A stretch of 64,000 bases of DNA, taken from assembly GCA_030524175.1 (NCBI GenBank), contig JAUNHC010000009.1, forward strand, positions 62,001-126,000, given 5' to 3'. The position numbers and the translations under genes were made by a program. Under the pieces are notes generated by a model, which was not told the origin of the DNA, did not search any database, and was given only the letters and a program-made list of their open reading frames with translations. Origin of the DNA: Eubacteriales bacterium (GTDB taxonomy: Bacteria; Bacillota; Clostridia; Lachnospirales; Lachnospiraceae). Positions 2,791 to 62,600 of this stretch are shown here, in pieces (position 1 is the stretch's first letter; every line of letters begins with the position of its first letter).

Positions 2791-2799
2791 GAGTGGCTT

Positions 2800-3510: not shown

Positions 3511-3523
3511 AGTGAGGATTTGG

Positions 3524-4075: not shown

Positions 4076-4084
4076 GGAGAGGTT

Positions 4085-40095: not shown

Positions 40096-41394
40096 ATGAG
40101 AAAAAGACTGGCAGCATCTTTATTGGCAGCAAGTATGGCGGTAATGACCGTAATTGGAGGAAGCGGTGTAAACATAGTTTCTGCAGCTGAAAAAGCTCCA
40201 AAATCTGATGTCACATTGACACTTGCAATGTGCGGAGACGGAACTACAAAAGAATCCCTGGACGAACTTCTTGGGGAGTATACGGAGCAGACAGGGGTTA
40301 AGGTGGAGACTATTTTCATTGCGTCAGACTGGGGGAACTATTGTACAAAGATCCAGACTATGGTAGGAGGCGGCGAAGACCTTGACTGTGCTATTCTGGC
40401 CATTGAAGGTGTGAGCAAATTTATCGGAATGGATATTGCAGCCCCCATTGATGACTGGATCGAAGCAAACCCTGAGCTTGCGGAAAACGTGATCAACGAT
40501 ACAAATCCTGAGCATCAGAAGGTATTCCAAAAAGACGGCAAGACCTATGCACTGCCTTTTTCTTTTAACAACGTTTTGATGCATTTTAATACCGACAGAT
40601 TGGAAGAAGCGGGACTGGAGCTGCCTCCGGCAGACTGGGATAAGGAAATGTTTCTGGAATACTGCGAAAAGCTTACAACAGAAAAAGATGGTGTGAAGCA
40701 GTATGCTGTTGCCCTTCCTTATGGAGAATATTTCTGCACAGAAGCATGGCTTATCAACAACAATGGAGCATATATGAATGAGGATTTCACAGAATCCACC
40801 ATCAATTCACCGGAATCTGTAGAAATGTTCCAGTTAATGCAGGACTTGATTTATAAGTATGGATATGCACCGGTTCCCGAAGAGAATGTAAGTGCCATTG
40901 AGCAGCTGATGAATGGTCAGTGCGCTATGGGATCCTGGGGAAGATGGCCAACAGCAAATTATATTGCAAGTGATTTTGACAGCGTTGCCGTACAGTATCT
41001 CCCAAGTTTTAAGAAAAACCAGCAGATTTTCGGTGTTGACGGAATCTTTACCATTGCCAGCTCCAAACATCTGGAAGAAGCAAAAGATCTGGCAGGATGG
41101 ATGTCCCAGCAGGATTTTGCAGGAAAGTATCTGACAGCAGGAAATATTCCGGCGCTGAATTCTTTGGCCCAGGAGAAAATTGACAGTCTCGGCCTTCCGG
41201 AAAATTGCGAGATTTTCTACAAGGATTCCAATACTACAGATTATAAATCCGTCAGCGCACCGCCTCAGTATACAGAATGTTCTTATATAGTAACAACTGC
41301 ACTTTCTGAAATTTTAGTGAATCAGGCAGATGTCCAGGAAACTTTGGACCAAGCTGCAGAAGAAATGAATGAGATTCTGGAGGAAAACAGATAA
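40096..41394 (+). CDS. CUT1 ABC extracellular solute-binding protein
   Basis: A 432-residue family 1 solute-binding protein. It has an N-terminal signal (about 1-30, ending V-S-A-A-E) and the typical Y-A-L-P-F-S-F-N-N hinge region near residue 150. No lipobox Cys is evident, so anchoring is unclear. The ligand is likely an oligosaccharide or glycoside, given the GH116 enzyme in the same operon. AAGGAGG precedes the ATG. It is the first gene of a four-gene operon controlled by the divergent two-component pair. Confidence 0.9.
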   Translation: MRKRLAASLLAASMAVMTVIGGSGVNIVSAAEKAPKSDVTLTLAMCGDGTTKESLDELLGEYTEQTGVKVETIFIASDWGNYCTKIQTMVGGGEDLDCAILAIEGVSKFIGMDIAAPIDDWIEANPELAENVINDTNPEHQKVFQKDGKTYALPFSFNNVLMHFNTDRLEEAGLELPPADWDKEMFLEYCEKLTTEKDGVKQYAVALPYGEYFCTEAWLINNNGAYMNEDFTESTINSPESVEMFQLMQDLIYKYGYAPVPEENVSAIEQLMNGQCAMGSWGRWPTANYIASDFDSVAVQYLPSFKKNQQIFGVDGIFTIASSKHLEEAKDLAGWMSQQDFAGKYLTAGNIPALNSLAQEKIDSLGLPENCEIFYKDSNTTDYKSVSAPPQYTECSYIVTTALSEILVNQADVQETLDQAAEEMNEILEENR

Positions 41395-41453
41395 CGCTGT
41401 AAGTTGGTTCTGTTAAGAGCGCAGCGATTCTGAGATGGAGAGGTGAAGGCTAT

Positions 41454-42371
41454 ATGAAAGCAGCGGGCGGAACGATAGAGGAGCTGAGAAGAAAAAAGGC
41501 CAGGCGGAATAATGTGGCAGGATACATGTTTCTGGCTCCCACACTGATATTGTTTTTGGGGTTTATTTTAATACCTATTTTACTGTCCTCAGTGTTGTCC
41601 TTTTTTAAATATAACTTAATCACAGATGCTAAATTTGTGGGACTGGACAACATTATAAAATTTTTTAATGACAAGGGTGTCATGAACTCCTTTGGAAATA
41701 CCTTTAAGTTTCTGGTGATCTTAGTGCCCATACATTGTGTACTGGGTGTTGTCCTTGCATTTTTGGTATACCGTGCAAAAAGATTCCAGTTCTTTTTCAG
41801 AACAGCAATCTATTTCCCAACAGTAGTGACCACAGCTTCTGTGGCACTGGCCTGGGGATATATGTTCGCCACGGACACAGGTGTGATCAATTACTTTGTG
41901 AGAATGCTCGGAGGAAGCAATATCCCGTGGCTGACAAACAAGACCTTTGTCTATGTCACGATTGCATTGTTCAGCTTCTGGAAGTTTATAGGGACTACGT
42001 TTTTATACTATTTTATCGGTTTGCAGAATATTCCGGATGTGTATTACGAGGCAGCTCAAATTGACGGAAGCAGTACCCTGCATACTTTTATCCATGTGAC
42101 GCTTCCTCTTTTGACACCTACCATATTCTTCGTCATGATAACAAATATAGTAGGGGTATTCCAGATATTTGACGAGCCGTTTTTGCTGACAAACGGAGGT
42201 CCCGGGTCTGCAACAAAAACAGTTGCCCTGGAAATTTACCAGACAGCATTCAAGGAGATGAATATCGGATATGGAGCAATGATTTCGTTTGTACTGTTTC
42301 TGATCATTCTTGTAATTACGATCGTACAGTATGTAGGCCAGAATAAGTGGGTGGTGTATGACTATGAGTAA
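41454..42371 (+). CDS. CUT1 ABC permease (MalF/UgpA-like)
   Basis: A 305-residue permease with six hydrophobic segments. The cytoplasmic EAA loop reads Y-Y-E-A-A-Q-I-D-G-S-S-T near residues 200-212. This loop docks the ATPase. No ATP-binding gene is present in this operon, so a shared MsmX/MsmK-type ATPase elsewhere on the chromosome is expected. The gene starts 59 bases after the binding-protein stop with a GA-rich ribosome site, and its end overlaps the next permease. Confidence 0.92.
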   Translation: MKAAGGTIEELRRKKARRNNVAGYMFLAPTLILFLGFILIPILLSSVLSFFKYNLITDAKFVGLDNIIKFFNDKGVMNSFGNTFKFLVILVPIHCVLGVVLAFLVYRAKRFQFFFRTAIYFPTVVTTASVALAWGYMFATDTGVINYFVRMLGGSNIPWLTNKTFVYVTIALFSFWKFIGTTFLYYFIGLQNIPDVYYEAAQIDGSSTLHTFIHVTLPLLTPTIFFVMITNIVGVFQIFDEPFLLTNGGPGSATKTVALEIYQTAFKEMNIGYGAMISFVLFLIILVITIVQYVGQNKWVVYDYE

Positions 42372-43197
42372 AATGAAAGCAAAAATGCCCCAGATAATAT
42401 TGATTGTATTTTTATTTGCATTATGCCTGATCATGCTGGCGCCTTTCGCATGGATCATTTCCACATCCCTCCGGCTGCCGGCAGAATCCTTTAAACTGCC
42501 GCCGCAGTTTTTTCCCACAAGTTTTCACTATCAGAACTATGTGGATGTTTTTACTTCCTTTCCATTTGCAAGATGTATTTTCAACAGTTTGAAAATCGCA
42601 GTCATTGTGGTAGCTGCAAATATCATTATTACCACAATGGCAGGATATGCCTTTGCCAGAATTCCTTTTAAAGGAAAGAATGTGGTCTTTATGCTTATTT
42701 TGGCAGGGATGATGATCCCAACACAGGCGAAGCTGATTCCCACTTACATTGTCATGTCAAAGCTGGGACTTGTGGGAACACATTCCGCCCTTATCCTGCC
42801 GGCTCTCATAAGCCCAATCAACATTTTCTTTGTCCGACAGTTTATGATGACCATACCCTCAAGTTACGAGGAGGCGGCATATATTGACGGTGCAGGAAGA
42901 GTGAAAATATGGTGGAGTATTTTCGTCCCCATGTCAAAATCAGTGATCGTCATGGTGTCGCTGCTGTCCTTTCTGGCGTCCTGGAACGACTTTATCAATC
43001 CGCTGATTTTCTTATCAAAATATGAGATGATGACCTTGCCGCTTGGACTCAAAACATTGAGCGGTGCTATGAACACGGGAAGTGCCTCTATTGTTCTGGC
43101 AGGAGTTGCAGTATCTCTCGTTGTGCCTACGCTTTTATACATATTCGGACAGAAGCATATTTTAAAAAGTGTTGTGATGTCAGGGCTGAAAACCTGA
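42358..43197 (+). CDS. CUT1 ABC permease (MalG/UgpE-like)
   Basis: A 279-residue permease with six hydrophobic helices. The EAA loop S-Y-E-E-A-A-Y-I-D-G-A-G-R lies near residues 170-182. It overlaps the MalF-like gene by 14 bases; ATG 42364 six bases later is equally possible as the start. With the preceding permease it forms the heterodimeric channel of the oligosaccharide importer. Confidence 0.92.
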   Translation: MTMSKMKAKMPQIILIVFLFALCLIMLAPFAWIISTSLRLPAESFKLPPQFFPTSFHYQNYVDVFTSFPFARCIFNSLKIAVIVVAANIIITTMAGYAFARIPFKGKNVVFMLILAGMMIPTQAKLIPTYIVMSKLGLVGTHSALILPALISPINIFFVRQFMMTIPSSYEEAAYIDGAGRVKIWWSIFVPMSKSVIVMVSLLSFLASWNDFINPLIFLSKYEMMTLPLGLKTLSGAMNTGSASIVLAGVAVSLVVPTLLYIFGQKHILKSVVMSGLKT

Positions 43198-43223
43198 CAC
43201 ACCGCTTAACAGAAGGGAAAATA

Positions 43224-45671
43224 ATGAATATGAAAAAAAATAACTGGAAACGGGAACGTACCATTCAGGATAACACCAAGGTTTATACAAACAAAGATCT
43301 TGCTTTCCGTGCACTTCTGGGAGGTATCGGGACAGGAAATATCTCTCTGGATGCAGGAGGAAGGTTATGTGATTTTGAAGTGATGAATCACCCGGATAAA
43401 GGGCTGAAAATCCCTTATACCTTTTTCGCACTATGGGCGAAATTTGGTCAGGAAGAACCAAGGGCTCTTGTTCTGGAAGCAAAGCATGAAGGGGTGAGCA
43501 GCCGGGCGCTGGGACACCCCACAGGGGAGCTTCTCGGTCTGCCCAGGTTTGACGAATCTGTTGTAAAAACAAATTACCCTTTCTATTCCCTGGAATTCAG
43601 GAAAAGGAATCTTCCCCTTGAAGTACGCCTGGAGGCAGTTTCTCCTTTTATTCCTCTGGATGAAGTGAATTCCGGAATCCCTGCTTTCCGTATGAAGTAT
43701 ACGGTTGCAAACAAAGGAGACAAAAAGGCAGCAGTGTCTGTCAGCGGAACTATGTACAATTTTGCCGGAATGAGTCATTATAACGGATATGACCAGCTCA
43801 TTCAGAACGGACAGCCTTATAATAAAAAATTTGAGGAATGGGGTGTATCCGGCATCTATATGAGCACCAAAGGCCAGGAGGAAAATGATGTAACCTACGG
43901 AAGTCTTGCCATTGCAACGGCAAATAAAAATGTAACCAGTAAGCCTTTGTGGCAGTTTGGAAGCTGGTGGGACGGAGCAGAGGAATTCTGGCAGGATTTC
44001 CGGGAGGATGGCAGGCTTAAGGAAGATACAGCCTCAGACGCAGTAGGCTCAAACATCAAGGGCACAGAGTCCAATCGTTACGTAGGCTCAGTTGCGGCTA
44101 TGGAGGAGATCGGACCGGGAGAGGAAAAAGAGTTTGTCTTCTATATCTCCTGGGATTTTCCAAACAGATACGGCTGGTGGCCGGACGGGCATCATATGCT
44201 TGAAGACGGTAGTGACAAAAAGATCTGGCACAATTACTACAGCACACTGTGGAAAAATGCAGCGGAGACCATAGGATATTTCCGTGAGAACGAAGCAATG
44301 CTTATGGAAAAAAGCCGGCTTTTTGCAGATGCCCTTTACAGCACGACACTGCCGGCAGATGTGATTGAATCTCTGGTATCAGCGATCACTGTAATAAGGT
44401 CCAACACATGTTTCCGTATTGAGGACGGCAGGTTTTTCGGGTGGGAAGGATGCTTCGAACATGCAGGAAGCTGTCCCGGTACCTGTACCCATGTGTGGAA
44501 TTATGCCCAGGCACTGGCTTTTCTGTTCCCGAAGCTGGAACGCAGTGCAAGGTATACAGAATTTTTACAGGAGACAGATGAGACGGGCAATATGGCGTTT
44601 CGGGCAAAAAGGCTGCTGGATGGTGAAAAATGGGATATGCTGCCGGCAGCGGACGGACAGCTTGGCTGTATCATGAGAGTATACCGGGAATGGAAGCTTT
44701 CCGGGGATGATAAATTTCTGCAGGACGTGTGGGATAAGGTGGTTCAGGCCATGGACTATTCGCTGAGAACCTGGGACCCGGACGGAGATTTTGTCATGGA
44801 GGAGCTTCAGCATAATACTTATGACATTGAATTTTACGGATTGAATTCCCTTACGAATTCCATTTTGTACGGCGCTCTTTGGGCATGCAAAGAAATGGCG
44901 GAATATCTTGGAGATACAAAGCGGGCTGCATTTTATGGAGAAGGTGTGCTGCGGGGCAGTGAAAAAATGGACAAGGAGCTGTGGAACGGCAGCTATTATG
45001 AGCAAAAAATCAGTGATGAGGATCTGAATAAATACAGGTATCAGTATGGAAAGGGCTGTCTTTCAGACCAGCTTCTGGGGCAGGAACTGGCACATTTGTA
45101 CGGTCTGGGCTATATTCTTCCTAAGGAGCATGTGGCCAAGTCTGTCAAGGCTGTGTACGACTATAATTTTAAAGAAAGTCTGGAAGGCCACGAGAGCGTT
45201 CAGAGAACGTATGCTTTTGAAGATGAAGGCGGACTGCTGCTGTGTTCATGGCCCTTGGGAGGCAGGCCGAAACAGCCCTTTGTGTACAGCGATGAGGTGT
45301 GGACAGGAATTGAGTATCAGGTGGCAGTCCATCTGATATATGAAGGTTTTACTCAGGAAGCACTGGAGATGATAAATGTGCTCAGGAAACGATATGACGG
45401 GACGAGAAGAAGTCCGTATAATGAGATAGAGTGCGGAAATCACTATACCCGTTCGATGGCAGCGTGGGGACTGCTGGTATCTCTGTCAGGCTATGAATTT
45501 GATCTGACCCAAAATAAGGTATCCTTTTCACCGCGTATCAATCAGGAGGATTTTACATGTTTCTATTCCAACGGAACTTCCTGGGGAGTTTACCAGCAGA
45601 AATTCAATGATAAGGGAACCATGGAAAAAGAACTGATTTCACTGTGGGGCAGTGAAAACCAGCTGGTTTAA
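43224..45671 (+). CDS. GH116-family beta-glycosidase
   Basis: An 815-residue cytosolic protein without a signal sequence. It has an N-terminal beta-sandwich (about 1-330, starting with the R-A-L-L-G-G-I-G-T-G-N motif) and a C-terminal (alpha/alpha)6 barrel. The conserved E-L-Q-H-N-T-Y-D-I-E-F segment, expected to carry the nucleophile Glu, and S-D-E-V-W-T-G-I-E-Y are visible. GH116 members are retaining beta-glucosidases, beta-xylosidases or glucosylceramidases. It probably hydrolyses the glycoside imported by the CUT1 system. It is the last gene of the operon, 26 bases after the permease. Confidence 0.87.
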   Translation: MNMKKNNWKRERTIQDNTKVYTNKDLAFRALLGGIGTGNISLDAGGRLCDFEVMNHPDKGLKIPYTFFALWAKFGQEEPRALVLEAKHEGVSSRALGHPTGELLGLPRFDESVVKTNYPFYSLEFRKRNLPLEVRLEAVSPFIPLDEVNSGIPAFRMKYTVANKGDKKAAVSVSGTMYNFAGMSHYNGYDQLIQNGQPYNKKFEEWGVSGIYMSTKGQEENDVTYGSLAIATANKNVTSKPLWQFGSWWDGAEEFWQDFREDGRLKEDTASDAVGSNIKGTESNRYVGSVAAMEEIGPGEEKEFVFYISWDFPNRYGWWPDGHHMLEDGSDKKIWHNYYSTLWKNAAETIGYFRENEAMLMEKSRLFADALYSTTLPADVIESLVSAITVIRSNTCFRIEDGRFFGWEGCFEHAGSCPGTCTHVWNYAQALAFLFPKLERSARYTEFLQETDETGNMAFRAKRLLDGEKWDMLPAADGQLGCIMRVYREWKLSGDDKFLQDVWDKVVQAMDYSLRTWDPDGDFVMEELQHNTYDIEFYGLNSLTNSILYGALWACKEMAEYLGDTKRAAFYGEGVLRGSEKMDKELWNGSYYEQKISDEDLNKYRYQYGKGCLSDQLLGQELAHLYGLGYILPKEHVAKSVKAVYDYNFKESLEGHESVQRTYAFEDEGGLLLCSWPLGGRPKQPFVYSDEVWTGIEYQVAVHLIYEGFTQEALEMINVLRKRYDGTRRSPYNEIECGNHYTRSMAAWGLLVSLSGYEFDLTQNKVSFSPRINQEDFTCFYSNGTSWGVYQQKFNDKGTMEKELISLWGSENQLV

Positions 45672-45697
45672 CAAACATATATAAGCAATCAGACGAT

Positions 45698-45744
45698 AAG
45701 GCTTTCTATGACAAAGATCCGATCATAGGAAGCCTTTTATTTTG
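45698..45744 (+). terminator. intrinsic terminator of the CUT1-GH116 operon
   Basis: A 14-bp stem with one G-T pair (45698-45711 with 45723-45736), an 11-base loop and a T-rich tail. Confidence 0.85.
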
Positions 45745-45814
45745 TTCTGTATTCCATTAAATATCAACCAAACGGGCAGGCCTCTTTTTGTGAAAAAATA
45801 CAATGAAATGTACA

Positions 45815-45843
45815 TTGACATTGGAGAGAAGATATCGTATATT
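45815..45843 (+). promoter_or_regulatory. strong predicted sigma-A promoter of the glycyl radical locus
   Basis: TTGACA (45815-45820) and TATATT (45838-45843) have a 17-base spacer. The start site would be near 45850. Confidence 0.75.
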
Positions 45844-45883
45844 AAAAATAGTAACAACGTTTGAAATTTCTTTTTTTAATACA

Positions 45884-45910
45884 AATTGGTATTATATCAC
45901 AATACCAATT
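45884..45910. promoter_or_regulatory. 10-bp inverted repeat, candidate GntR operator
   Basis: AATTGGTATT (45884-45893) and AATACCAATT (45901-45910) are perfect inverted repeats with a 7-base spacer. They lie about 35-60 bases into the predicted transcript, just before the activase ribosome site. The T-T-G-G-T-A-T half-site resembles known GntR-family operators. The GntR gene in the same operon is the likely partner; an RNA hairpin role is the alternative. Confidence 0.55.
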
Positions 45911-45923
45911 ATGGGAGAATAAA

Positions 45924-46796
45924 ATGAAACTGAAAGTATTTCAAAAAGGATTTAATTATTCCCAGGACGGCCGGGGAAACCGATTGATCTATCACCTCCA
46001 GGGCTGTAATATGCACTGTCCCTGGTGCTCCAATCCCGAGGGGATTTCCGTGTGCGGTGTGCTCTTTGTGGAGAAGGAGTGGCTGGATGAAAATTCCTGT
46101 CCCAAAGGAGCAGTGCGGGACAGCGTGCTGGACAGGAACATGTGCAAGCAGTGTGAAGATGTTCCCTGCATCACGGGAAGACGTCAGAAAGGGATCCGCC
46201 TATCCTGCAAAGAGTACGAAGTGGATACCATTGTGAGAGAATGTGTGGACAGTAAGCCCATGTTTTTTGACGGCGGCGGTGTCACTCTCACAGGGGGAGA
46301 GATCACTCTTCAGTTCCAGGCGGTGAAGGAGCTGTTGGAAAAACTTCATCAGGCTGAGATCCATACGGCTATTGAGAGTAATGGCTCCCACCCCGGAATG
46401 GAAGAATATCTTCCGCTGGTGGATGAGTGGATCATGGATTTGAAGCATTATGACAACAGGAAGCATATGGAATGGGTGGGAGTGCCAAACACCTGGGTGA
46501 TCAATAATATCCGCATGGCAGCAGAGCGCCACCCGGATGTATTGATCCGAATTCCTCTCATACCAGGTTTTAACGACAGCAGGGAGGAAGCGGAGGGCTT
46601 TACAGAGTTCCTGAAATCTTGTGGGATAAGGCAAAATGTGAGAGTGGAGCTTTTAAGCTATCATGAGTTCGGAAAAGGAAAATGGGAACAATGCGGTTTT
46701 ACATATACTATGAAGCCTGGCAGGATATCACCGGAGACAGTGGACTATTTAGAGAATAAGCTGAGACAAGAAGGAATCAATGTTGTCCGTACTTGA
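45924..46796 (+). CDS. glycyl-radical-enzyme activating protein (radical SAM)
   Basis: A 290-residue activase. The radical SAM cluster is Cys28, Cys32 and Cys35 in G-C-N-M-H-C-P-W-C. Additional cysteines at about 56-80 (S-C-P-K-G, M-C-K-Q-C, V-P-C) suggest one auxiliary ferredoxin-like cluster. G-G-G-V-T-L-T-G-G-E is the SAM-binding motif. It installs the glycyl radical on the enzyme encoded at 46879. ATG 45924 has GGGAGA upstream; the frame extends back to 45861 without a good ribosome site and would read through the inverted repeat. Confidence 0.93.
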   Translation: MKLKVFQKGFNYSQDGRGNRLIYHLQGCNMHCPWCSNPEGISVCGVLFVEKEWLDENSCPKGAVRDSVLDRNMCKQCEDVPCITGRRQKGIRLSCKEYEVDTIVRECVDSKPMFFDGGGVTLTGGEITLQFQAVKELLEKLHQAEIHTAIESNGSHPGMEEYLPLVDEWIMDLKHYDNRKHMEWVGVPNTWVINNIRMAAERHPDVLIRIPLIPGFNDSREEAEGFTEFLKSCGIRQNVRVELLSYHEFGKGKWEQCGFTYTMKPGRISPETVDYLENKLRQEGINVVRT

Positions 46797-46813
46797 AAAA
46801 TTGCGCATATAAC

Positions 46814-46843
46814 GTAACAGGGCAGGCTTGCCTGAACTGTTAC
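46814..46843 (+). repeat. hairpin between activase and glycyl radical enzyme
   Basis: GTAACAG/CTGTTAC (46814-46820 and 46837-46843) enclose a second 5-bp stem CAGGC/GCCTG. There is no T tract. It may set the ratio of activase to enzyme by mRNA processing or stability. Confidence 0.5.
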
Positions 46844-46878
46844 CACATAACAAAGGGAAACGAAAGGAGATCAATACT

Positions 46879-49269
46879 ATGAAAATTCAGGAATTGTACA
46901 ATGCAAATGAAATCACACAGCTTGCCAAGGACCGTTTCCAGGAGGAGCGTTCCCTAAATCATCTGGAGGGATGGTTTCTGGCAAGAGAAATCGCCATGAA
47001 CTGCGATGAAATTTACAAAAATGAGCCGGACAGTATCCGGATCGCTAAGACTCAGCTTGAAGTGGTGAAGAGACTTCCCTTGACGCTTGGCAGCTATCAT
47101 GTTTTTGCCGGAACCCAGGATGATGCCTTTGCCCGCTCATACGCGCTGATCAACCCTGCATTCCAGGTAAGTTCCTTCACAGGTTACTGTGATCCAACAG
47201 CAGTATTTGGGGATATTGATCCCATTGGAGACATTACAGAGGAACGTATTGCACATGTCAAAGAGTATTATACGAAAAATGAGTTTGCAAAGGTTCTCAC
47301 TGCTGCCTACGCTCCGGCGGAGAAGTATACAAAGGAGGCTGTTTTCTTCATAGAGCAGGTAACCGGGCATGTGATACCGGACGTACGTCATCTCCTTGAA
47401 AAAGGTGTACGCTTTGTTCAGGAAGAGATCAAGGAAAAACAGAAGGAGTCTCAGGATGCCCGGAAGAAACAGTATTATGAGGCCATGGGCATATCTCTGG
47501 AGGCAGTTCTTGTCCTTGCTGCCAGATATGCATCCCTTGCCACAGAGAAAGCCAATGCAGCACAGGGAAAAGAAAGAGAGAGGTACCTTCTCATGGCAGA
47601 AACTTTACAGAAGGTTCCGGCAGAGGGAGCAGAGGATCTTTATGAGGCGATCCAGTCCTTCCTTCTTATCTGGCAGGCAATGTGCCTGGAACAGGCACCC
47701 AATCCCTTCGCTTTTTCTGTGGGAAATGCAGACCGTATCTTTGAGCCTTACAGGGCGAAAGAGGATACAGACAGGGATATGGCAGCATCACTTTTGAAGC
47801 ATATGCTGGTATTTTATAATGTGGCGGACAGAAGCTGGGCAATTTCCCAGAATCTTATTATCGGAGGAAGAGATGTTCAGGGAAATGATCTGACGAATCC
47901 TACTTCCTATGCCCTCCTGGATGCTTATTTTGACATGAACCTGCCACAGCCTATCCTTTCAGTGAAACTGCATAAGAATACTCCAGATAAACTGTATGAA
48001 GAGATGGGACGTTTCTTCTTTACCCCAGGTGTGCTTACCCCTTCCCTTTTCAACGACGACTCACTTTTTGAAATCCTCAGAGCCAACGGTGTGGCGGAAG
48101 AGGATCTGCCCGATTATTCCGTAGCCGGCTGCCAGGAGCCGCTTATTATGGGAAAGGACAATGGAAATACCACCAATAGCTGGCTGAACATGCCGAAGGT
48201 TCTGGAACTTGTTCTCCAGGGCGGGAAATCTGAGATTACCGGAGAACAGATCGGAAAGACGAGAGAAGCCCTGGGTTACACCAGCAGCCTGGAACTTCTG
48301 AAAAATATCAGGGAAGTATTTTATAAAGAGCTTGACTATTATGTGGATGAGATGGTAGAAGCTGCAAACAATGCTTCACGTGCCATCGGACTTTACCAGG
48401 TGCCTTTCCTTTCTGCAATGATGGGAGGCATTGAGTCAGGAATTGATATGAGAGATACGAAACAGCAGGGGACCAAATATAACGGAAGCGGCTGCCTCAT
48501 TCACGGCCTGAGTGTGATGGCGGATTCCTTCATTGCCATTGATACGCTCCTTGAGGAGCGTCCCCAGGATGCTGACCGCCTTCTGGATGCACTGCGCACC
48601 AATTTTGAGCAGGATGAGGAACTGCATCAGTACCTGCTGGAATGTGATAAATACGGCAACAACATCCCACGGGTAGACCAGGAGGCAAAGGAGATCGCAG
48701 AACGGGTATCTGCTATGGTCGCTTCCAAGAAGAATTATCTGGGAAATCCCTTCCGGCCGGATTATGCAACTCCATCCACCCATCTGATGTACGGTTACTG
48801 GGTAGGGGCAACCCCTGACGGAAGGCAGGCAAGAGAGATGCTGAATTACGGCGTGGATCCTTTATACGGAGAAGCTTCCGGAGGTCTTGGAATGCGTATG
48901 CTCTCCAACCGGTATCTGCCTTTCGAAAAAATGGTGGGCGGTTATGCATCACACTTTGGGATCAATCCAGGGTATTTCCGTGGAAAGAGTCTTGAAGAAA
49001 AGGGATTGGAATTTAAGAATAAAATCTTTAATCCTCTGTTCTTTAACCAATATGATGAAGAGAAAATATCACCCTTCTATCTTTATGTAAATGTTACAAC
49101 ACCTGATATGCTTCGCAAGGTGCTGGCGGAACCGAAAAAATATGCTCCAAGCGGTGTGTATATTGTGCGTATTCACGGAACCTTCGTGAATTTCCTGGAT
49201 CTTTCTCCGGAAATCCAGGAGGATATCATCAAGCGTCTTGACCCCGGCTCAACCGAAATGAGTGCCTGA
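46879..49269 (+). CDS. glycyl radical enzyme of the PflD/YbiW-like dehydratase-lyase group
   Basis: A 796-residue glycyl radical enzyme. The thiyl-radical cysteine is Cys418 in A-G-C-Q-E-P, the G-C-x-E pattern of eliminating enzymes (diol dehydratase, choline lyase), not the Cys-Cys of pyruvate formate-lyase. The radical glycine is Gly767 in R-I-H-G-T-F-V-N-F, where most relatives have R-V-x-G-Y. AAAGGAG sits before ATG 46879; an upstream TTG at 46828 is rejected. The neighbours (activase, two FGGY kinases, FSA-type aldolase) point to a phosphorylated sugar or polyol substrate. E. coli pflD and ybiW have similar neighbourhoods. Precise reaction unknown. Confidence 0.88.
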   Translation: MKIQELYNANEITQLAKDRFQEERSLNHLEGWFLAREIAMNCDEIYKNEPDSIRIAKTQLEVVKRLPLTLGSYHVFAGTQDDAFARSYALINPAFQVSSFTGYCDPTAVFGDIDPIGDITEERIAHVKEYYTKNEFAKVLTAAYAPAEKYTKEAVFFIEQVTGHVIPDVRHLLEKGVRFVQEEIKEKQKESQDARKKQYYEAMGISLEAVLVLAARYASLATEKANAAQGKERERYLLMAETLQKVPAEGAEDLYEAIQSFLLIWQAMCLEQAPNPFAFSVGNADRIFEPYRAKEDTDRDMAASLLKHMLVFYNVADRSWAISQNLIIGGRDVQGNDLTNPTSYALLDAYFDMNLPQPILSVKLHKNTPDKLYEEMGRFFFTPGVLTPSLFNDDSLFEILRANGVAEEDLPDYSVAGCQEPLIMGKDNGNTTNSWLNMPKVLELVLQGGKSEITGEQIGKTREALGYTSSLELLKNIREVFYKELDYYVDEMVEAANNASRAIGLYQVPFLSAMMGGIESGIDMRDTKQQGTKYNGSGCLIHGLSVMADSFIAIDTLLEERPQDADRLLDALRTNFEQDEELHQYLLECDKYGNNIPRVDQEAKEIAERVSAMVASKKNYLGNPFRPDYATPSTHLMYGYWVGATPDGRQAREMLNYGVDPLYGEASGGLGMRMLSNRYLPFEKMVGGYASHFGINPGYFRGKSLEEKGLEFKNKIFNPLFFNQYDEEKISPFYLYVNVTTPDMLRKVLAEPKKYAPSGVYIVRIHGTFVNFLDLSPEIQEDIIKRLDPGSTEMSA

Positions 49270-49281
49270 GGGGGAGATGGC

Positions 49282-50298
49282 TTGGAAGAACAGAATCTTT
49301 ATCAGAATGTGAAAAAGAAAATCTGCAGGATGATCTATGAAGATATTTACCAGGACGGCGACTTGATCCCGCCGGAGCGTAAACTCTCTGAGGAGCTGGG
49401 GGTGAGCAGGGTAACTGTGCGCAAAGCCCTCAAGCTTCTGGAGGAGGAACATATCATTGAGCGTATCCAGGGAAGCGGAACAAGGATTGCCCTGCAGTAC
49501 GGTGCCAGGGAGGGGAATATGGATATCATTACCCTTGTTGCACCTGCCCAGAACGCCTTTTTTTCCAGGTTTATCGATGCATTCCAGACTACGGCGGAGG
49601 AGAAGGATTCTCTGGTGCTTTTTAAGCAGAAGCCTGGAAATATGTCATTGGAAAAGTGTTTATACCAGATATATGAGAAGGATCTGCGCAATGTGGTCCT
49701 CTGGCTTGAGGATATGGAGCTGACGTCAGAGGCATTGAGGAAACTGCGGGGCCTGGGGATGAATATTGTTCTCTTTGACACTACCTTTAAAAGCGCTTAT
49801 GCAGACGCGGTATGTGTGGACAACAGCGATGCCGTGAAGCGCCTGTACCAGGTATTGACGGATAAGGGCTGCAGCAAGATAGGATTTGTGGGCTGGGATG
49901 AAAAACGTGTAAGAAGTGTGCGGATCCGTGAACAGGAATTTTGCCGTCTGGCCCCGGAAGCTCCGGTGTGCCGGATGTCCTGGGACTATAGAAACAGACT
50001 GGACGAAATGTCCATGGAGGAAGTGGAAGAAAAGGTACAAGGCCTTTCCGGCTGTGACGGCATCATTTACAGTGTGGCGGAGCTGGGTATCCCCTTTGAG
50101 CGCAAGGCTAAAGAAAAAGGGATCGTTCACAGGTCAGCCATGATAGATGTACTTCCGGGGGCTGAGCAGCTTGGGATTACGGCTATGGAACAGGATTTCC
50201 AGGGGATGTCGGAGAAAATTTTTGACTGCCTGAAGCGTCAGAACCAGGGCGGAAGTGCCTGGAAAGCAGGAGTCTACCAGGTAAAGGGAAAACTGTGA
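49282..50298 (+). CDS. GntR-family regulator with periplasmic-binding-like sensor domain
   Basis: A 338-residue regulator. The N-terminal GntR winged helix (about 1-72) contains P-P-E-R-K-L-S-E-E-L-G-V-S-R-V-T-V-R-K-A-L. A LacI/AraR-like ligand-binding domain follows. The start is TTG 49282 preceded by GGGGGAGA; no in-frame ATG lies before the HTH, so TTG is the likely real start. It begins 12 bases after the radical-enzyme stop. AraR-like proteins are sugar-responsive repressors. The inverted repeat at 45884-45910 is the best operator candidate. Confidence 0.87.
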   Translation: MEEQNLYQNVKKKICRMIYEDIYQDGDLIPPERKLSEELGVSRVTVRKALKLLEEEHIIERIQGSGTRIALQYGAREGNMDIITLVAPAQNAFFSRFIDAFQTTAEEKDSLVLFKQKPGNMSLEKCLYQIYEKDLRNVVLWLEDMELTSEALRKLRGLGMNIVLFDTTFKSAYADAVCVDNSDAVKRLYQVLTDKGCSKIGFVGWDEKRVRSVRIREQEFCRLAPEAPVCRMSWDYRNRLDEMSMEEVEEKVQGLSGCDGIIYSVAELGIPFERKAKEKGIVHRSAMIDVLPGAEQLGITAMEQDFQGMSEKIFDCLKRQNQGGSAWKAGVYQVKGKL

Positions 50299-50336
50299 AA
50301 CATAGTTTCTGATATAGTAGGATAAGGAGAAATCAT

Positions 50337-51698
50337 ATGCGTGCAATGGGAATCGATATGGGAACCACCACGATCAGTGTGATCATCATTGACGGTGAAA
50401 GTGGGGAACTGATAAAAAGCAGGACCATTCCTCACAATGCTTTTATGAACGGGGAACTGCCCTCCAGCCGTATCCAGGATCCGGATAAGCTTCTGCTTCT
50501 GGTGCAGCAGGCAGTGGAGGAAATGACAGGTGAATGCGGTGTTCCTGACAGTATAGGAATGACGGGACAAATGCATGGGGTCTTGTATGTGGATGAGGAG
50601 GGAAAGGCAGTAAGTCCTCTTTATACATGGCAGGACGGAAGCGGCAATGAGAGAATGGAAGACGGCAGGACTTATGCCCAGGCTCTCCTGGAGTCAGCCG
50701 GGGCAGCCGCCGCAGGATATGGACTTACCACACATTTTTATCTTCAGAAAAACGGCAGGATACCAGGCCGGGCAAAGAAGATGACAACCATCAGCGATTA
50801 TATTGCCATGAGATTATGCGGCAGTAAGGAGCCTGTGATCGCCATGGATATGGCTGCCAGCTGGGGCTGTTTTGATCTGGAAAAGGGTGAGTTTTTCCTG
50901 GACAAACTTGAAAATACAGGGGTGGATATCTCTTATCTGCCCAAGGTGACAAAGGGACATGGAGTGATGGGAAATACTCCGTCGGGGATTCCGGTGACAG
51001 TGTCTATGGGAGATAATCAGGCCAGTGTTCTTGGTTCTGTCCGGGATTTATCGGATACGGTTCTGGTGAATATCGGGACAGGAAGCCAGGTTTCCTTTGG
51101 CACAGAGAAATTTCATGATGCCCAGGGGTCCATAGAGCTGCGCCCCTGTACAGAAAAACTGTATCTCATGGCCGGGTCAGGCCTGTGCGGAGGGAGAGCC
51201 TATGCTATGCTTGAACAGTTCTACCGGGAAGCATCAGGAAAGAGTAAGGATCAGGAGCTTTATTCCGTCATGGAGGCACAGGCCAGAGATTTCCTGAAAG
51301 CCTACGGAAAAGAAAATGCCTGGAAGATCAGGACTACCTTTTCCGGGACAAGAAGTAATCCCCAGGAGAGAGGCAGTATCCGCGACATCAGTGTGGAAAA
51401 CTTCCATCCCGGTGCAATGACAGTGGGGATGATCCAGGGAATCCTGGAGGAACTGTATGAAATGTACGGAGAAATGTGCCGTATGACAGGAACCAAGGCA
51501 GTTCGGCTGGTAGGCTCAGGAAACGGTGTCAGGAAAAATCCCCTGATGCGTGAGCTTGCCGAGTCTCTGTTCGGCATGAAGATGAATATCCCTGTGTGTA
51601 AAGAAGAAGCTGCTTATGGGGCCGCCTTACAGTCCCTGGCAGCAGCCGGGCTTTACGGATCCATGTCTGAATTACAGCAGAAAATCAAATATTTATGA
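50337..51698 (+). CDS. FGGY-family kinase resembling sedoheptulokinases
   Basis: A 453-residue FGGY kinase, shorter than the xylulokinase-like ones here. The N-terminus reads G-I-D-M-G-T-T-T-I-S. S-I-G-M-T-G-Q-M-H-G-V and Y-T-W-Q-D-G are close to the sedoheptulokinase (SHPK) pattern. The phosphate motif N-I-G-T-G-S-Q and the C-terminal G-S-G-N-G-V and A-A-Y-G-A-A segments are present. It should phosphorylate a ketose or cyclic polyol at its terminal carbon, making the substrate for the radical enzyme or for the aldolase. AAGGAG precedes the ATG. It is co-directional with all genes from 45924. Confidence 0.8.
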   Translation: MRAMGIDMGTTTISVIIIDGESGELIKSRTIPHNAFMNGELPSSRIQDPDKLLLLVQQAVEEMTGECGVPDSIGMTGQMHGVLYVDEEGKAVSPLYTWQDGSGNERMEDGRTYAQALLESAGAAAAGYGLTTHFYLQKNGRIPGRAKKMTTISDYIAMRLCGSKEPVIAMDMAASWGCFDLEKGEFFLDKLENTGVDISYLPKVTKGHGVMGNTPSGIPVTVSMGDNQASVLGSVRDLSDTVLVNIGTGSQVSFGTEKFHDAQGSIELRPCTEKLYLMAGSGLCGGRAYAMLEQFYREASGKSKDQELYSVMEAQARDFLKAYGKENAWKIRTTFSGTRSNPQERGSIRDISVENFHPGAMTVGMIQGILEELYEMYGEMCRMTGTKAVRLVGSGNGVRKNPLMRELAESLFGMKMNIPVCKEEAAYGAALQSLAAAGLYGSMSELQQKIKYL

Positions 51699-51738
51699 TG
51701 CCGGGATCACGAAGTGCAGAGAAATTCCAAGGTATCAG

Positions 51739-51760
51739 GGGGTAAAATACCTTTTGCCCC
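51739..51760 (+). other. small hairpin before the aldolase gene
   Basis: GGGGTAAAA and TTTTGCCCC (51739-51747 and 51752-51760) pair, with one G-T, around loop TACC. There is no T tract, and the aldolase ribosome site follows 20 bases later. Confidence 0.4.
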
Positions 51761-51793
51761 AAACATCGTATATAACAAATGGAGGAAAAGAAC

Positions 51794-52465
51794 ATGGAAA
51801 TTTTATTGGATACAGCGAACCTGGAGCAGATCAGAAAATATGTGGATTTATATGAAATCACCGGAGTGACGTCCAATCCAACAATCATTTCAAAGGAAAA
51901 AGCTGATTTTTGGCCTCTTCTTACGGAGATTAAGAAGGTAATAGGCGATAAACAGCTTCACGTACAGGTGACAGCAGATACCTGGGAGGAAATGCTTAAG
52001 GAAGCAGACTGCATCCGTGAGAGACTGGGAAAAGACACTTATATCAAAGTCCCCACCATTGAACAGGGTATCTGTGCCATGAAGCATTTAAAAGCAGCAG
52101 GTGCCAATGTGACAGCCACTGCCGTATATACTACACAGCAGGCTATGATGGCAGCCAGCGCAGGAGCTGACTATGTAGCACCGTATTTTAACCGCATGAA
52201 CAATTTGAATGTGGACAGCAAAAAGGTGATCGGGGATATGGCTCAGCTCTTCCGTACCCATAACAAGCCTACAAAGATTCTTGCAGCCAGCTTCAAGAAT
52301 ACAGAGCAGGTAATGGATGCCCTTACAGTGGGTGCCCAGGCAGTTACTGTATCCGTTGACCTTCTCACTACTATGGTGAAAAATGCTATCATTGATTTTG
52401 CTGTGGATGGGTTTAAGAAGGATTGGATCGATACTTATGGCGATAAGAAAATATATGAATTATAG
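51794..52465 (+). CDS. fructose-6-phosphate-aldolase-type protein (FSA/TalC family)
   Basis: A 223-residue TIM-barrel class I aldolase. The Schiff-base lysine is Lys85 in Y-I-K-V-P. Gln58 and Tyr131 (V-A-P-Y-F-N-R) occupy the positions of E. coli FsaA Gln59 and Tyr131. True small transaldolases have Glu at the first position, so aldolase activity is favoured. It would split fructose 6-phosphate or a deoxy analogue into glyceraldehyde 3-phosphate and a C3 ketone. ATG 51794 is chosen because GGAGG (51781-51785) lies upstream; ATG 51779 overlaps that site. FSA genes also neighbour glycyl radical enzymes in E. coli. Confidence 0.85.
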   Translation: MEILLDTANLEQIRKYVDLYEITGVTSNPTIISKEKADFWPLLTEIKKVIGDKQLHVQVTADTWEEMLKEADCIRERLGKDTYIKVPTIEQGICAMKHLKAAGANVTATAVYTTQQAMMAASAGADYVAPYFNRMNNLNVDSKKVIGDMAQLFRTHNKPTKILAASFKNTEQVMDALTVGAQAVTVSVDLLTTMVKNAIIDFAVDGFKKDWIDTYGDKKIYEL

Positions 52466-52651
52466 TAACTGTTCAGTACAGGACTGTGCTTTTACTGCAC
52501 AGTCCGTGCGGAAACGTTGAACTGCTACTTATAATGTTTTTCCGGCTGCGTCCGGTTCATAAAAGGTACTGCTGATCCGCAGGTTTTCAGGTGTCTATAT
52601 ACCTGCAGAGAGCTTCTGCGGGCAGCAATAAAAATTTAGGAGGTAACATTT
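52466..52651 (+). other. structured intergenic leader before second FGGY kinase
   Basis: No gene was found. GGACTGTGC/GCACAGTCC (52481-52489 and 52497-52505) forms a perfect 9-bp stem, itself inside a longer imperfect inverted repeat that starts GTAACTGTTC (52465-52474). Further on, CCGCAG/CTGCGG (about 52576 and 52616) encloses CAGGT/ACCTG. No T tract follows either structure. GGAAACGTT at 52510-52518 is a partial LacI- or cre-like site. Confidence 0.4.
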
Positions 52652-54160
52652 ATGAGCAGATATTTGCTTGCACATGATATCGGCACATCGGGAAATAAGG
52701 CATCTCTGTTTTCTGTAGAGGGAGAGTTGGTGAAAAGCACAGTTGCCCCTTATGAGACAAATTACCAGTCCGGAGGGATCGCAGAACAGGAACCCCGGGA
52801 CTGGTGGAATGCTGTCTGCTGCTCCACCAGGGAAATTATGAGTGGTATTGCTCCTGAGGATGTGGCGGCGGTATCTTTTTCAGGCCAGATGCAGTGCTGT
52901 CTCGTGGTTGATAAACAGGGACAGGTGCTGCGTCCTGCCATGATATGGGCAGACCAGCGGGCAGAACCACAGGCAAAAAAGCTTAGAGAAGCTTTTGATG
53001 AACGTTATGCCTATGAGCTGCTGGGGCACCGCCTCAGCCCTTCATACAGCATAGAAAAGCTTATGTGGATCAAGGACAATGAGCCGGAAATTTTCAGGAA
53101 TACATATAAAATGCTCCAGGTAAAGGACTATATTATCTATCGCATGACCGGTAAATTCGTCACAGATTATTCCGATGCATCAGGAACCAATGCCCTGGAT
53201 TTAGAGAACTTATGCTGGTCACAGGAGATTCTGGACGCAGCACAAATAGACATAGATAAGCTTCCGGAGCTGCACAATTCCACAGATGTGATAGGCACCT
53301 TGACAGAGGAGGCGGCAGCGGCACTGGGTCTTACAACAATGACTAAAGTTGTATGCGGAGGAGGAGATGGTCCCTGTTCTGCGCTGGGAGCCGGGTGCAT
53401 AGAAAAAGACCAGATGTTTCTCACCTTTGGAACCTCTGCCTGGATAGGCGGTACCACTGATAAGAAATTCCTGGATGAAGATCAGGTTTTCTTCTGCTTC
53501 GCCCATGTTATACCGGGGCGCTATATGCCCTGCGGCACTATGCAGTCTGCCGGAAGCGCTTACTCATATGCCAGAAATACCTTCTGCCAGGAGGAAATCC
53601 GTAAGGCGCAAGAGGAGGGGAAAAGCTCCTGGGAACTTATTAATGAAATGGTGGAAAATTCTCCTGCAGGGGCAAAAGGACTACTCTTCCTTCCCTACCT
53701 CACAGGGGAACGGGCCCCAAGATGGAATCCTGATGCATCAGGCAGCTTCCAGGGAATCCGTATGTATCATCAGAGGGAAGATTATATACGGGCGGTTGTG
53801 GAAGGCGTTGCCATGAATCTGGAACTGATCCTTAATGCGTACAGAAAATATCTTGATATCGACAGTATGATCCTCACAGGAGGCGGCGCCAAGGGTGACA
53901 TTGTGGCACAGATCCTTTCTGATGTGATGTCTGCAGAGCTTGTCAGGCCGGATCATGTTGAGGAAGCAACTTCCATTGCGGCTGCCGTGATCGCTGGTGT
54001 GGGCTGCGGTATTTATGAAGATTTTACTGCCATCAAAAGCTTCCTGAAGTTTGGAAATCCTGTAGTGCCAGATAAAAGCAATGAAGAAGTTTACTCCAAG
54101 GCAAAAAAACTTTTTGACGATGTCTATGAAGCGTTAAAACCGCTGTATGCACGGTTTTAG
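52652..54160 (+). CDS. FGGY-family carbohydrate kinase (xylulokinase-like)
   Basis: A 502-residue FGGY kinase with H-D-I-G-T-S-G-N-K at the N-terminus, F-S-G-Q-M-Q, I-W-A-D-Q-R-A, T-F-G-T-S-A-W and T-G-G-G-A-K-G. It belongs to the xylulokinase/erythritol-kinase-like branch and differs from the kinase at 50337. It is the last gene of the radical-enzyme region, after a 186-base structured gap, and is followed by a terminator. It may phosphorylate the locus substrate or a side product. AGGAGG precedes the ATG. Confidence 0.85.
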   Translation: MSRYLLAHDIGTSGNKASLFSVEGELVKSTVAPYETNYQSGGIAEQEPRDWWNAVCCSTREIMSGIAPEDVAAVSFSGQMQCCLVVDKQGQVLRPAMIWADQRAEPQAKKLREAFDERYAYELLGHRLSPSYSIEKLMWIKDNEPEIFRNTYKMLQVKDYIIYRMTGKFVTDYSDASGTNALDLENLCWSQEILDAAQIDIDKLPELHNSTDVIGTLTEEAAAALGLTTMTKVVCGGGDGPCSALGAGCIEKDQMFLTFGTSAWIGGTTDKKFLDEDQVFFCFAHVIPGRYMPCGTMQSAGSAYSYARNTFCQEEIRKAQEEGKSSWELINEMVENSPAGAKGLLFLPYLTGERAPRWNPDASGSFQGIRMYHQREDYIRAVVEGVAMNLELILNAYRKYLDIDSMILTGGGAKGDIVAQILSDVMSAELVRPDHVEEATSIAAAVIAGVGCGIYEDFTAIKSFLKFGNPVVPDKSNEEVYSKAKKLFDDVYEALKPLYARF

Positions 54161-54165
54161 CAGAT

Positions 54166-54213
54166 AAAAAACCGATGGTTTTGGCTGAATTCAGCCTGTG
54201 CCATCGGTTTTTC
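54166..54213 (+). terminator. intrinsic terminator after the glycyl radical region
   Basis: AAAAACCGATGG pairs with CCATCGGTTTTT (54167-54178 with 54201-54212). A nested GGCTG/CAGCC hairpin lies inside and T residues close the 3' arm. Confidence 0.85.
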
Positions 54214-54310
54214 TATATACCAGGAAAGCACTCCCCATTGTTCTCTCAAATCCGCATCTGTACAATAATATAAAAAGCAATAAAAAGCTATAGAAAATGC
54301 ATTTCCCTGC

Positions 54311-54339
54311 TTGATTATTCATAAAAATAATGATATAAT
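54311..54339 (+). promoter_or_regulatory. strong predicted sigma-A promoter of the Liv operon
   Basis: TTGATT (54311-54316) and TATAAT (54334-54339) have a 17-base spacer and an extended TG upstream of the -10. The start would be near 54346. Confidence 0.75.
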
Positions 54340-54406
54340 TTGGGAAATGTTCGGTGGACAAATACAAATGTCCTTGCGAAAAGAACAAAGAGGGAGGCTA
54401 TATTCT

Positions 54407-55582
54407 ATGAAAAAAAGCTTAATATCTGTTTTACTCACAACAGCAGTAGCAGCATCAATGGTTATTGGATCGGCAGTGCCGGCATTTGCAGCAGACACGG
54501 TAAAAATCGGTGTTTACGAGCCTGCATCAGGTGATAACGGGGCGGGCGGCAAGCAGGAGACTCTTGGTATCCAGTATGCAAACAGTATTGCACCTACCGT
54601 GGAGATCGGCGGAACAGAATACAATGTTGAACTGAAGGTAGTGGATAATGAGTCATCCAATGACAAGGGACCGTCTGCGGCAGCATCACTTGTGAGCGAG
54701 GGCGTTTCTATTGTACTTGGTTCCTACGGCTCCGGCGTTTCCATTGCAGCATCGGATATATTCAAAGAGGGCGGAGTTCCGGCTATGGGCGTTACCTGTA
54801 CCAATCCTCAGGTTACTCAGGGAAATACTCATTATTTCCGTATCTGTTTCCTTGACCCGTTCCAGGGTACCGTACTTGCCAACTTCGCAAATGAGAAATT
54901 CGAAGCCAAGAAAGCCTATGTCCTGACAAAATTAGGAGATGACTACTCCACTGGCCTTGGACATTACTTCACAAAAGCCTTCGAAGAGCTTGGAGGAGAA
55001 GTGATTGCCGAGACATTCCCGGAAGGCAATAGTGATTTTGCTTCCTATATAACTTCTGCCAAGAATGCAGACGCAAGTGTTTTCTTTGCACCTGTATCCA
55101 CAGAAGCAGCAGCTCTTATTATTGAGCAGGCATCCGCACAGGGGATGGAGATTCCCATTATGGCAGGCGATACCTGGGATTCAAACGTTATCTTAAGTGC
55201 AGCCAAAGGCAAAAACGTTCAGGTTTATGTCACCACTTTCTACCAGGAAGGCGGAAATCCTGAGTTTGATGAGGGTATGAAGGAATTTATCAATGCAGAT
55301 TCCACAGCCAAGGCCAACAACGGCGGTGACGATACTATTTCTGCAGTATCTGCAATGGGATACGATGCTTATTTCGTGGCCCTGGAGGCCCTGAAGGCAG
55401 CCGGAAGCACTGATCCGGCAGCAGTGAACGAGGCTCTGTGGGATGTTACATACGAGGGCGTTTGCGGTAAGGTTGAGTTCGATGACGAAAACGGCGATGC
55501 AATGCGCAACACTGCTTATGTAAAGAGTGCAAACACAGAGACTGGTGCATGGGAATTCGTTGGAGAACAGAGCATCAAATAG
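54407..55582 (+). CDS. Liv-type ABC substrate-binding protein
   Basis: A 391-residue leucine-binding-protein-like (Peripla_BP_6) receptor. It has a signal sequence (about 1-28, A-V-P-A-F-A-A) and the typical start V-K-I-G-V-Y-E-P-A-S-G. No lipobox is seen. ATG 54407 has GAGGGAGG upstream; the frame reaches back to 54311 but would include the promoter. The family binds branched-chain amino acids, amides, or sometimes other small polar compounds; the ligand is not readable. It is the first gene of a complete five-gene Liv operon. Confidence 0.88.
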   Translation: MKKSLISVLLTTAVAASMVIGSAVPAFAADTVKIGVYEPASGDNGAGGKQETLGIQYANSIAPTVEIGGTEYNVELKVVDNESSNDKGPSAAASLVSEGVSIVLGSYGSGVSIAASDIFKEGGVPAMGVTCTNPQVTQGNTHYFRICFLDPFQGTVLANFANEKFEAKKAYVLTKLGDDYSTGLGHYFTKAFEELGGEVIAETFPEGNSDFASYITSAKNADASVFFAPVSTEAAALIIEQASAQGMEIPIMAGDTWDSNVILSAAKGKNVQVYVTTFYQEGGNPEFDEGMKEFINADSTAKANNGGDDTISAVSAMGYDAYFVALEALKAAGSTDPAAVNEALWDVTYEGVCGKVEFDDENGDAMRNTAYVKSANTETGAWEFVGEQSIK

Positions 55583-60744: not shown

Positions 60745-61623
60745 ATGAAATATGGAATTGGATATGCTTATTGGGGCACAACCTGGGACTGTGATTTAGA
60801 AAAATATAAAAAGGTGGCAAAAAAACTTGCGGATTTTGGTTTTACCATGTTTGAAATCAGTGCGGATCACCTTTATCACATGAACGAGAAGGAACTGACC
60901 GAAATGGCAGCCATAGGTAAGGAGTACGGTCTCACCTTTTCCACTAACAGCGGACCTGCCAAAGAGTACGACTTATCTTCAGGAGAGGAAGCAGTGAGAA
61001 GCAACGGACTCAACTACTTCAAGCAGATAGTGAAGAACATGGATGCGATCAAATCCCCGGTGCTTGCCGGTGCCATTTATTCCTTCTGGCCCAGTGATTT
61101 TGCACAGACAGATAAAGCCGCGGCGTGGGAACGCAGTATCCCGCTTCTTCGTGAATTGGGAAATGTGGCTGAGGGATACGGCATTGAATGTGCACTTGAG
61201 GTTCTCAACAGAAATGAGACATACATACTGACAGACTGTAAGGAAGCCATAGATTACTGCAATCAGGTGGGAAGTAAAGCGGTCAATATCCTGCTGGATA
61301 CTTACCATATGAATATTGAGGAAGACAATATGTGTGATGCCATCCGCCTTGCTGGAGATATGCTGGGTCACTTCCATGTAGGAGAAGCAAACAGAAAGCT
61401 TCCGGGAATGAATAACAGCATTGACTGGGACAGTGTGGGAAAAACGCTTAGAGATATCAATTATGATAAAGGCGTGGTTATGGAGCCGTTCTTGCTGTCA
61501 GGCGGGGCAGTGGGGAGCAGTATCAGAGTTTGGAGAGATTTAAGCAATAATGCTGACGAGGCTATGATGGATGAATATCTGAAAAAATCCCTTGCCTTTC
61601 TTAAAAGCAAATGTGAGGGCTGA
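60745..61623 (+). CDS. D-tagatose/D-allulose 3-epimerase-family enzyme
   Basis: A 292-residue TIM-barrel protein of the xylose-isomerase-like superfamily. Metal ligands are visible: Glu152 in L-E-V-L-N-R, Asp185 in L-L-D-T-Y-H-M, His211 in H-F-H-V-G-E and Glu247 in V-M-E-P-F. They match the Glu-Asp-His-Glu set of D-allulose (psicose) 3-epimerases nearly residue for residue. It interconverts D-allulose with D-fructose or D-tagatose with D-sorbose. The PfkB kinase next door could then phosphorylate the product. AAGGAG precedes the ATG. It is the first gene of the LacI-controlled operon. Confidence 0.88.
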   Translation: MKYGIGYAYWGTTWDCDLEKYKKVAKKLADFGFTMFEISADHLYHMNEKELTEMAAIGKEYGLTFSTNSGPAKEYDLSSGEEAVRSNGLNYFKQIVKNMDAIKSPVLAGAIYSFWPSDFAQTDKAAAWERSIPLLRELGNVAEGYGIECALEVLNRNETYILTDCKEAIDYCNQVGSKAVNILLDTYHMNIEEDNMCDAIRLAGDMLGHFHVGEANRKLPGMNNSIDWDSVGKTLRDINYDKGVVMEPFLLSGGAVGSSIRVWRDLSNNADEAMMDEYLKKSLAFLKSKCEG

Positions 61624-61640
61624 GAACAGGAGGCAAAGAA

Positions 61641-62579: not shown

Positions 62580-62600
62580 ATATCGGCAGATGGAGGGACT

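Follow-up and report, generated by a model that had tools for sequence, protein, structure and literature searches.

A glycyl radical enzyme family with a variant radical loop in a Lachnospiraceae operon, possibly serving the catabolism of a manno-configured sugar

Which reaction is catalyzed by a glycyl radical enzyme (GRE) encoded together with two FGGY kinases and an aldolase? The question is raised by a six-gene locus in the window, a stretch of 64,000 nucleotides from a Eubacteriales bacterium of the family Lachnospiraceae (contig JAUNHC010000009.1, positions 62,001 to 126,000). The sequences argue for a distinct family of GREs, marked by a variant radical motif, in a sugar-catabolic module. 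Much less certain is our tentative scheme for its role: the family would consist of new glycyl radical C-O eliminases, and the locus would be an operon for anaerobic sugar catabolism in which such an enzyme supplies a manno-configured aldose. All six genes lie on the plus strand in the following order.

45924..46796, + strand: GRE activase, radical SAM motif CX3CX2C (TIGR02494, 192.9 versus a cut-off of 174.35 bits)
46879..49269, + strand: GRE, 796 aa (Pfam PFL-like domain, 377 bits)
49282..50298, + strand: GntR-type regulator (PF00392, 67 bits; weak RbsR match, residues 82-224)
50337..51698, + strand: KIN1, the FGGY kinase of the core module (FGGY_N/FGGY_C)
51794..52465, + strand: FSA-type aldolase (NF009299, 264.2 versus a cut-off of 214; aligns with the solved FSA 9v4b)
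52652..54160, + strand: KIN2, a xylulokinase-like FGGY kinase (TIGR01312, 394.8 versus a cut-off of 380.25)

The gene order and coordinates proposed in a first-pass annotation were confirmed by the open reading frames (ORFs), by family scans and by an identical order in Blautia schinkii (L018) and a Blautia metagenome-assembled genome (MAG; L019), with 64-91% protein identity (80% for KIN2 in both). Because the order is the same in these relatives, the grouping of the six genes is not due to chance. The best start of the GRE gene is the ATG at 46879, preceded by an AAAGGAG site, and a longer ORF for FSA begins 15 bases upstream of 51794. The aldolase passed one of three FSA models and was under the cut-offs of NF009296 (201 versus 306) and TIGR00875 (185.5 versus 245.95). 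The C-terminal half of the regulator is possibly sugar-binding. KIN1 is probably a ketose kinase; it scored far under the cut-off of the XylB model TIGR01312 (113.9 versus 380.25), and xylulokinase was rejected as its identity. The likeness to sedoheptulokinase suggested in the first-pass annotation is an assumption that we share; no such model or sequence was among the matches. None of the six genes encodes a phosphotransferase system (PTS) component, the rest of the genome not having been searched for PTS genes.

We compared the GRE with its relatives at 66 loci beyond the window, in Clostridia and in Victivallis-type bacteria. In the resulting 67 rows, three of them partial (L029, L107 and L149), the thiyl-site sequence GCQE (GCQEP in the window, with Cys418 and Glu420) and both Thr431 and Thr432 were kept throughout (67/67), as were Ala278 (66/66) and His164 (65/65) in the rows that reach them. 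The radical loop reads R-I-H-G-T-F, with Gly767 as its glycine, in all 66 rows with a C-terminus, instead of the usual R-V-x-G-[YWF]. The loops of the comparison GREs were RV[ASCW]G[YFW], and R-I-H-G-T was not seen in any other GRE examined. Pfam Gly_radical (PF01228) gave no match to the window GRE at E<=0.001, so a search with this model misses this GRE. Since the loop retains its Arg and Gly, and since the alignment of larger GRE models (TIGR01774, for example) extends to residue 787, the motif is a variant and the glycyl domain is not absent. The protein otherwise has the features of the superfamily: a PFL-like barrel domain and fold, the C-x-E thiyl site of eliminases and a dedicated activase. 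Across all mapped loci, 63 ORFs were labelled as activase, and 57 of these contain CX3CX2C. Among the papers listed by literature searches, none described an operon of this kind.

As a separate observation, the GRE gene is split in two in G809:C86 (L078 and L079, with internal stops) and in G950:C6 (L077 and L080), by either a frame break or an assembly error.

The distribution of the family was estimated in overlapping draws of genomes. Counting the own genome, 8 of 392 genomes of the order carried an ortholog, as did 21 of 397 of the family, 14 of 391 of the class and 1 of 348 of the phylum. The order draw gave 11 matches at E<=1e-60, three of which were of another kind (30-32% identical), and the genome contigs gave 16 loci, one merely 25% identical. 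In the class to which a Victivallis MAG belongs, 19 of 197 genomes carried the GRE at 49-55% identity. The nearest named relative is that of B. schinkii (88%). As six other listed genomes of the window's genus had no match, the GRE is an accessory trait.

To describe the genes that accompany the GRE, maps of 53 loci and of 20 loci (L030 in both) were labelled by best BLAST hits over 55 bits. L037 and L106, which share contigs with L032 and L029, and L033, L041, L042 and L043, which hold no ortholog, were dropped, leaving 66 loci counted within 5 kb of the GRE; several end at a contig edge and some are closely related. An activase-like ORF was present at 59 of the 66 loci. KIN1-type kinases were found at 47, KIN1- or KINx-type at 56 and any labelled FGGY kinase at 58, in agreement with the earlier suggestion of a radical sugar operon that uses ATP-dependent kinases and lacks a PTS gene. 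The conserved partners of the GRE are thus the activase and an FGGY kinase. GntR-type regulators occurred at 43 loci (50 with ROK-family proteins included), mannose-6-phosphate-isomerase-like genes at 23, the mutarotases GalM or DUF4432 at 7, lyxose isomerase at 3 and psicose-type epimerase at 2. Beyond these counts, L088 has an isomerase-like gene, L135 has GalM, and mannose-isomerase-like genes lie past 5 kb in L031 (385 versus a cut-off of 600) and its relative L022. In L137 and L139 a class II aldolase is followed by a lyxose isomerase, and contig ends hide any isomerase-like gene.

Several further features of these neighbourhoods were recorded. In the putative GRE operon of L084, the gene next to KIN1 (6334-9732) encodes a fusion of a GH38 alpha-mannosidase with an aldo-keto reductase domain. 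URO-D-family proteins lie near the GRE in three lineages (L085, 2618-3547; L105, 4283-5419; L148, 12606-13781, weak in the last), and a DHDPS-family gene lies upstream of KIN1 in L143 (4842-5741). In L035, L098 and L103, the GRE, kinase and GntR genes are followed by an FMN-dependent dehydrogenase gene and nrdD/nrdG-like genes, the latter named by eye.

In the scheme we propose, the activase would place a radical on Gly767, and Cys418 would then abstract a hydrogen at a carbinol carbon, with breakage of the adjacent C-O bond. The GRE would thereby feed a manno-configured aldose, either mannose or, in better accord with a dedicated kinase, a manno-heptose. This aldose would be supplied most likely as the leaving group from a conjugate and less likely by side-chain dehydration. 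A free-sugar isomerase, for which the candidates of the window's own genome lie at other loci, would convert it to the 2-ketose, and KIN1 would phosphorylate the ketose. The ketose phosphate would enter central metabolism, helped in operons of the window type by FSA, which could split it. The strictly kept catalytic residues and the near-constant activase support the scheme. So do the FGGY kinase labelled at 58 of the 66 loci, the isomerases of manno or lyxo type that recur near the GRE and the mutarotases at 7 loci.

The place of KIN1 in the isomerase branch is indicated by two loci. In L104 (11088-13646), outside the 23 counted above, KIN1 is fused to the mannose-6-phosphate-isomerase-like protein in a chain of 852 aa, which suggests consecutive steps. 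In L105, the 5 kb around the GRE contain no labelled FGGY kinase; 13 bases after the GRE lies a gene for a GmhA-like SIS protein (TIGR00441, 141.8 versus a cut-off of 209.45), followed by a ROK-family gene (the two at 2637-4286). GmhA is known to catalyze the reversible isomerization of sedoheptulose 7-phosphate to manno-heptose 7-phosphate. With a kinase acting before an isomerase, L105 would run the two steps in the opposite order to isomerase and then KIN1, and would reach the same end product. If KIN1 belongs to this branch, the GRE must feed the route from aldose to ketose to ketose phosphate. Release of the aldose as a leaving group fits best, because an aldose must reach the isomerase with C1 and C2 unaltered, and the GmhA-like step would need phosphorylation at the far end. 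A more specific proposal, in which radical elimination by the GRE splits an ether or glycosidic linkage of a sugar and the manno-configured sugar is the leaving group, is doubtful.

The partner isomerase-like protein resembles ManA, the type I mannose-6-phosphate isomerase (phmmer match to 1qwr, 8.8e-15; Pfam cupin domain at 25.4 bits, under the cut-off of 27). It differs from ManA in that the Arg of the E. coli sequence LRAGLTPK is replaced by Q or E in the rows shown. With the role that we take this Arg to have in ManA, its absence fits a free-sugar substrate. The own genome holds a single isomerase-like gene, located elsewhere, beside GH38 and DHDPS-family genes (L160, 8595-13853), with GH92 beyond a divergent regulator. 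It also holds two lyxose isomerase genes; one adjoins a GH2 gene that encodes a mannosidase domain, and the other occurs with a ribose-type importer. A search for KIN1 (E<=1e-40) through 176 genomes of the order matched only five, four of which carry the GRE. The substrate of KIN1 is therefore probably no common sugar, and its rarity favors a ketose that is itself unusual, for example a heptulose, over fructose.

A number of observations weigh against the manno-aldose scheme. The window operon itself has no isomerase gene, and at 38 of the 66 loci no gene within 5 kb was labelled as an isomerase, L088 and L104 being included here solely because of how their genes were labelled. FSA lies near the GRE at merely 7 of the 66 loci. 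The GmhA-like gene was found at a single locus and under its cut-off, and KIN1 occurs apart from any GRE in G173. L094 and L107 instead carry genes of polyol-dehydrogenase type, a sign of a polyol taken up from outside. Genomes of this kind may often carry mannosidase genes. Finally, both the substrate and the chemistry, the exact reaction of the GRE included, are inferred.

Among the alternatives, the one that survives best divides the pathway between two halves of the substrate, mannose joined to a polyol. The GRE would eliminate on the polyol half to give a deoxyketose, KIN1 would phosphorylate it and FSA would split the product, leaving the freed mannose to the isomerase. The FSA gene of the window operon and that of L083, which lies between the GRE and KIN1, are consistent with such a route; FSA and the GRE are co-directional in L018, L019 and L083. 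Also consistent with it are the GH38-type genes that the putative GRE operons in L084 and L086 contain, which together with one in L148 speak for a manno-type sugar in general, and the fact that no KIN1-type gene was seen in the two mannosidase loci of the own genome. The L104 fusion and the absence of KIN1 beside the L105 GmhA-like gene, however, put KIN1 in the isomerase branch, and there is no conserved gene for a further product. We thus consider this route unlikely.

The next alternative in rank, also unlikely, is close to what had been read from FSA in the first-pass annotation: the GRE would open unphosphorylated 1,5-anhydroglucitol or 1,5-anhydromannitol to 1-deoxyfructose, and KIN1 and FSA would convert this to glyceraldehyde 3-phosphate and hydroxyacetone. 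It is an established fact that FGGY kinases act on ketoses, and the aldolase is over one curated FSA cut-off. According to a 2025 review, known GREs perform such an opening on the 6-phosphates (PMC12441222). The scarcity of FSA does not favor the anhydroglucitol reading, and the recurrence of aldose isomerases and mutarotases argues against it, because a 1-deoxyketose needs neither.

A pentose or polyol route is improbable as well. Here the GRE would act on a pentitol or ketopentose, and the isomerase, dehydrogenases and xylulokinase-like kinases would handle D-lyxose, D-arabitol and D-xylulose. Lyxose isomerase, zinc and short-chain dehydrogenases, psicose-type epimerase and xylulokinase-like kinases do occur near some members. 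Xylulose requires no radical step, however, KIN1 is far below the xylulokinase cut-off, and the own-genome isomerases adjoin mannosidase-type genes of GH38 and GH2. Last, a non-radical protein whose RIHGT loop cannot be activated and which has another role would accord with the missing Gly_radical match and with a loop that departs from every comparison GRE, but is very improbable given the retention of Gly767 and of the thiyl Cys and Glu in every row that could be scored and an activase near most of the GREs.

Two further features of the operon were examined.

45815..45843, + strand: promoter-like site ahead of the activase gene (11 of 12 consensus positions)
52466..52525, + strand: multicopy palindromic repeat between FSA and KIN2 (first 56-63 bases of the gap; 14 further places in the genome, 92-95%)

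The promoter-like site is weak, as the region has 14 such sites against 13.1 in shuffled sequences. The gap between FSA and KIN2 (52466-52651) had been described as structured, and it has a good predicted fold (z -3.42 for 52466-52645); it starts, however, with the multicopy repeat and is only 15 bases long in L018 and L019. Its start is thus most simply explained as an insertion, and the repeat is probably outside the pathway. An Rfam scan of 45600-54500 gave no match at the gathering score.

Other sugar genes flank the operon. A GH116 gene and a sugar ABC importer lie directly upstream (40096-45671). Downstream, a second sugar island (60745-64000, continuing in L044 to ~72100) encodes a psicose-type epimerase and a PfkB kinase (Pfam) and, further on, a ribose-type importer, zinc and short-chain dehydrogenases, a class II aldolase and rhamnulokinase-like and RhaA-like proteins, all of the latter named by eye from the starts of their sequences.

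Among the GREs abundant in the gut, many are reported to lack a known function (PMC11574389). For the present family, the near-dedicated kinase, the recurrent isomerases and the aldolase in some lineages reduce the possible substrates to a set that can be tested. Should the link to a manno-configured sugar hold, the enzyme would represent a new radical reaction in the sugar metabolism of gut anaerobes, and cleavage with a manno-configured leaving group, if true, would be a radical alternative to glycoside hydrolysis. The altered loop is a natural test of which residues matter around the glycyl radical.

We compared the GRE with characterized systems. It differs from choline trimethylamine-lyase CutC in its score (TIGR04394, 151.5 versus a cut-off of 1050) and in its sugar-gene neighbors. 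Its top fold matches were B12-independent glycerol and 1,2-propanediol dehydratases (1r8w, 5i2g and 9rco), at 23-24% identity. Of the key glycerol dehydratase (GDH) residues His164, His281, Ser282 and Asp447, His164 is kept, but the others are replaced by Phe or Tyr (66/66), Ala (66/66) and Thr (67/67), respectively. Thus, glycerol or propanediol dehydratase was rejected.

The closest comparison is with YbiW and PflD, the type to which the GRE had first been assigned. They share with the window a GRE with its activase, a C-x-E thiyl site, a sugar setting and an FSA nearby, which is also the case in E. coli, as the first-pass annotation had stated. The 1,5-anhydroglucitol 6-phosphate chemistry given there is likewise correct: the 2025 review describes the opening of this compound and of 1,5-anhydromannitol 6-phosphate by YbiW and PflD to 1-deoxyfructose 6-phosphate (PMC12441222). 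The assignment itself did not hold. The window GRE shares 23.3% identity with YbiW and 26.8% with PflD, compared with 38.6% for YbiW versus PflD. In the tree built from 39 rows, a branch with support of 100/99 had the GRE family (30) and the YbiW/PflD group (5) each on one side. The window family further differs in its RIHGTF loop, in its FGGY kinase and manno-type isomerase partners and in having no PTS gene in the operon. Membership among the 1,5-anhydrohexitol 6-phosphate lyases was therefore rejected on the low identity, the separate tree group and the different loop. L041-L043, in contrast, encode canonical RVAGY enzymes 41-44% identical to PflD, with FSA in two of the three and no KIN1 or isomerase-like match within their 16-18 kb of sequence. 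These loci look like the anhydrohexitol pathway described in the review (PMC12441222), and that pathway is thus distinct from the one encoded in the window.

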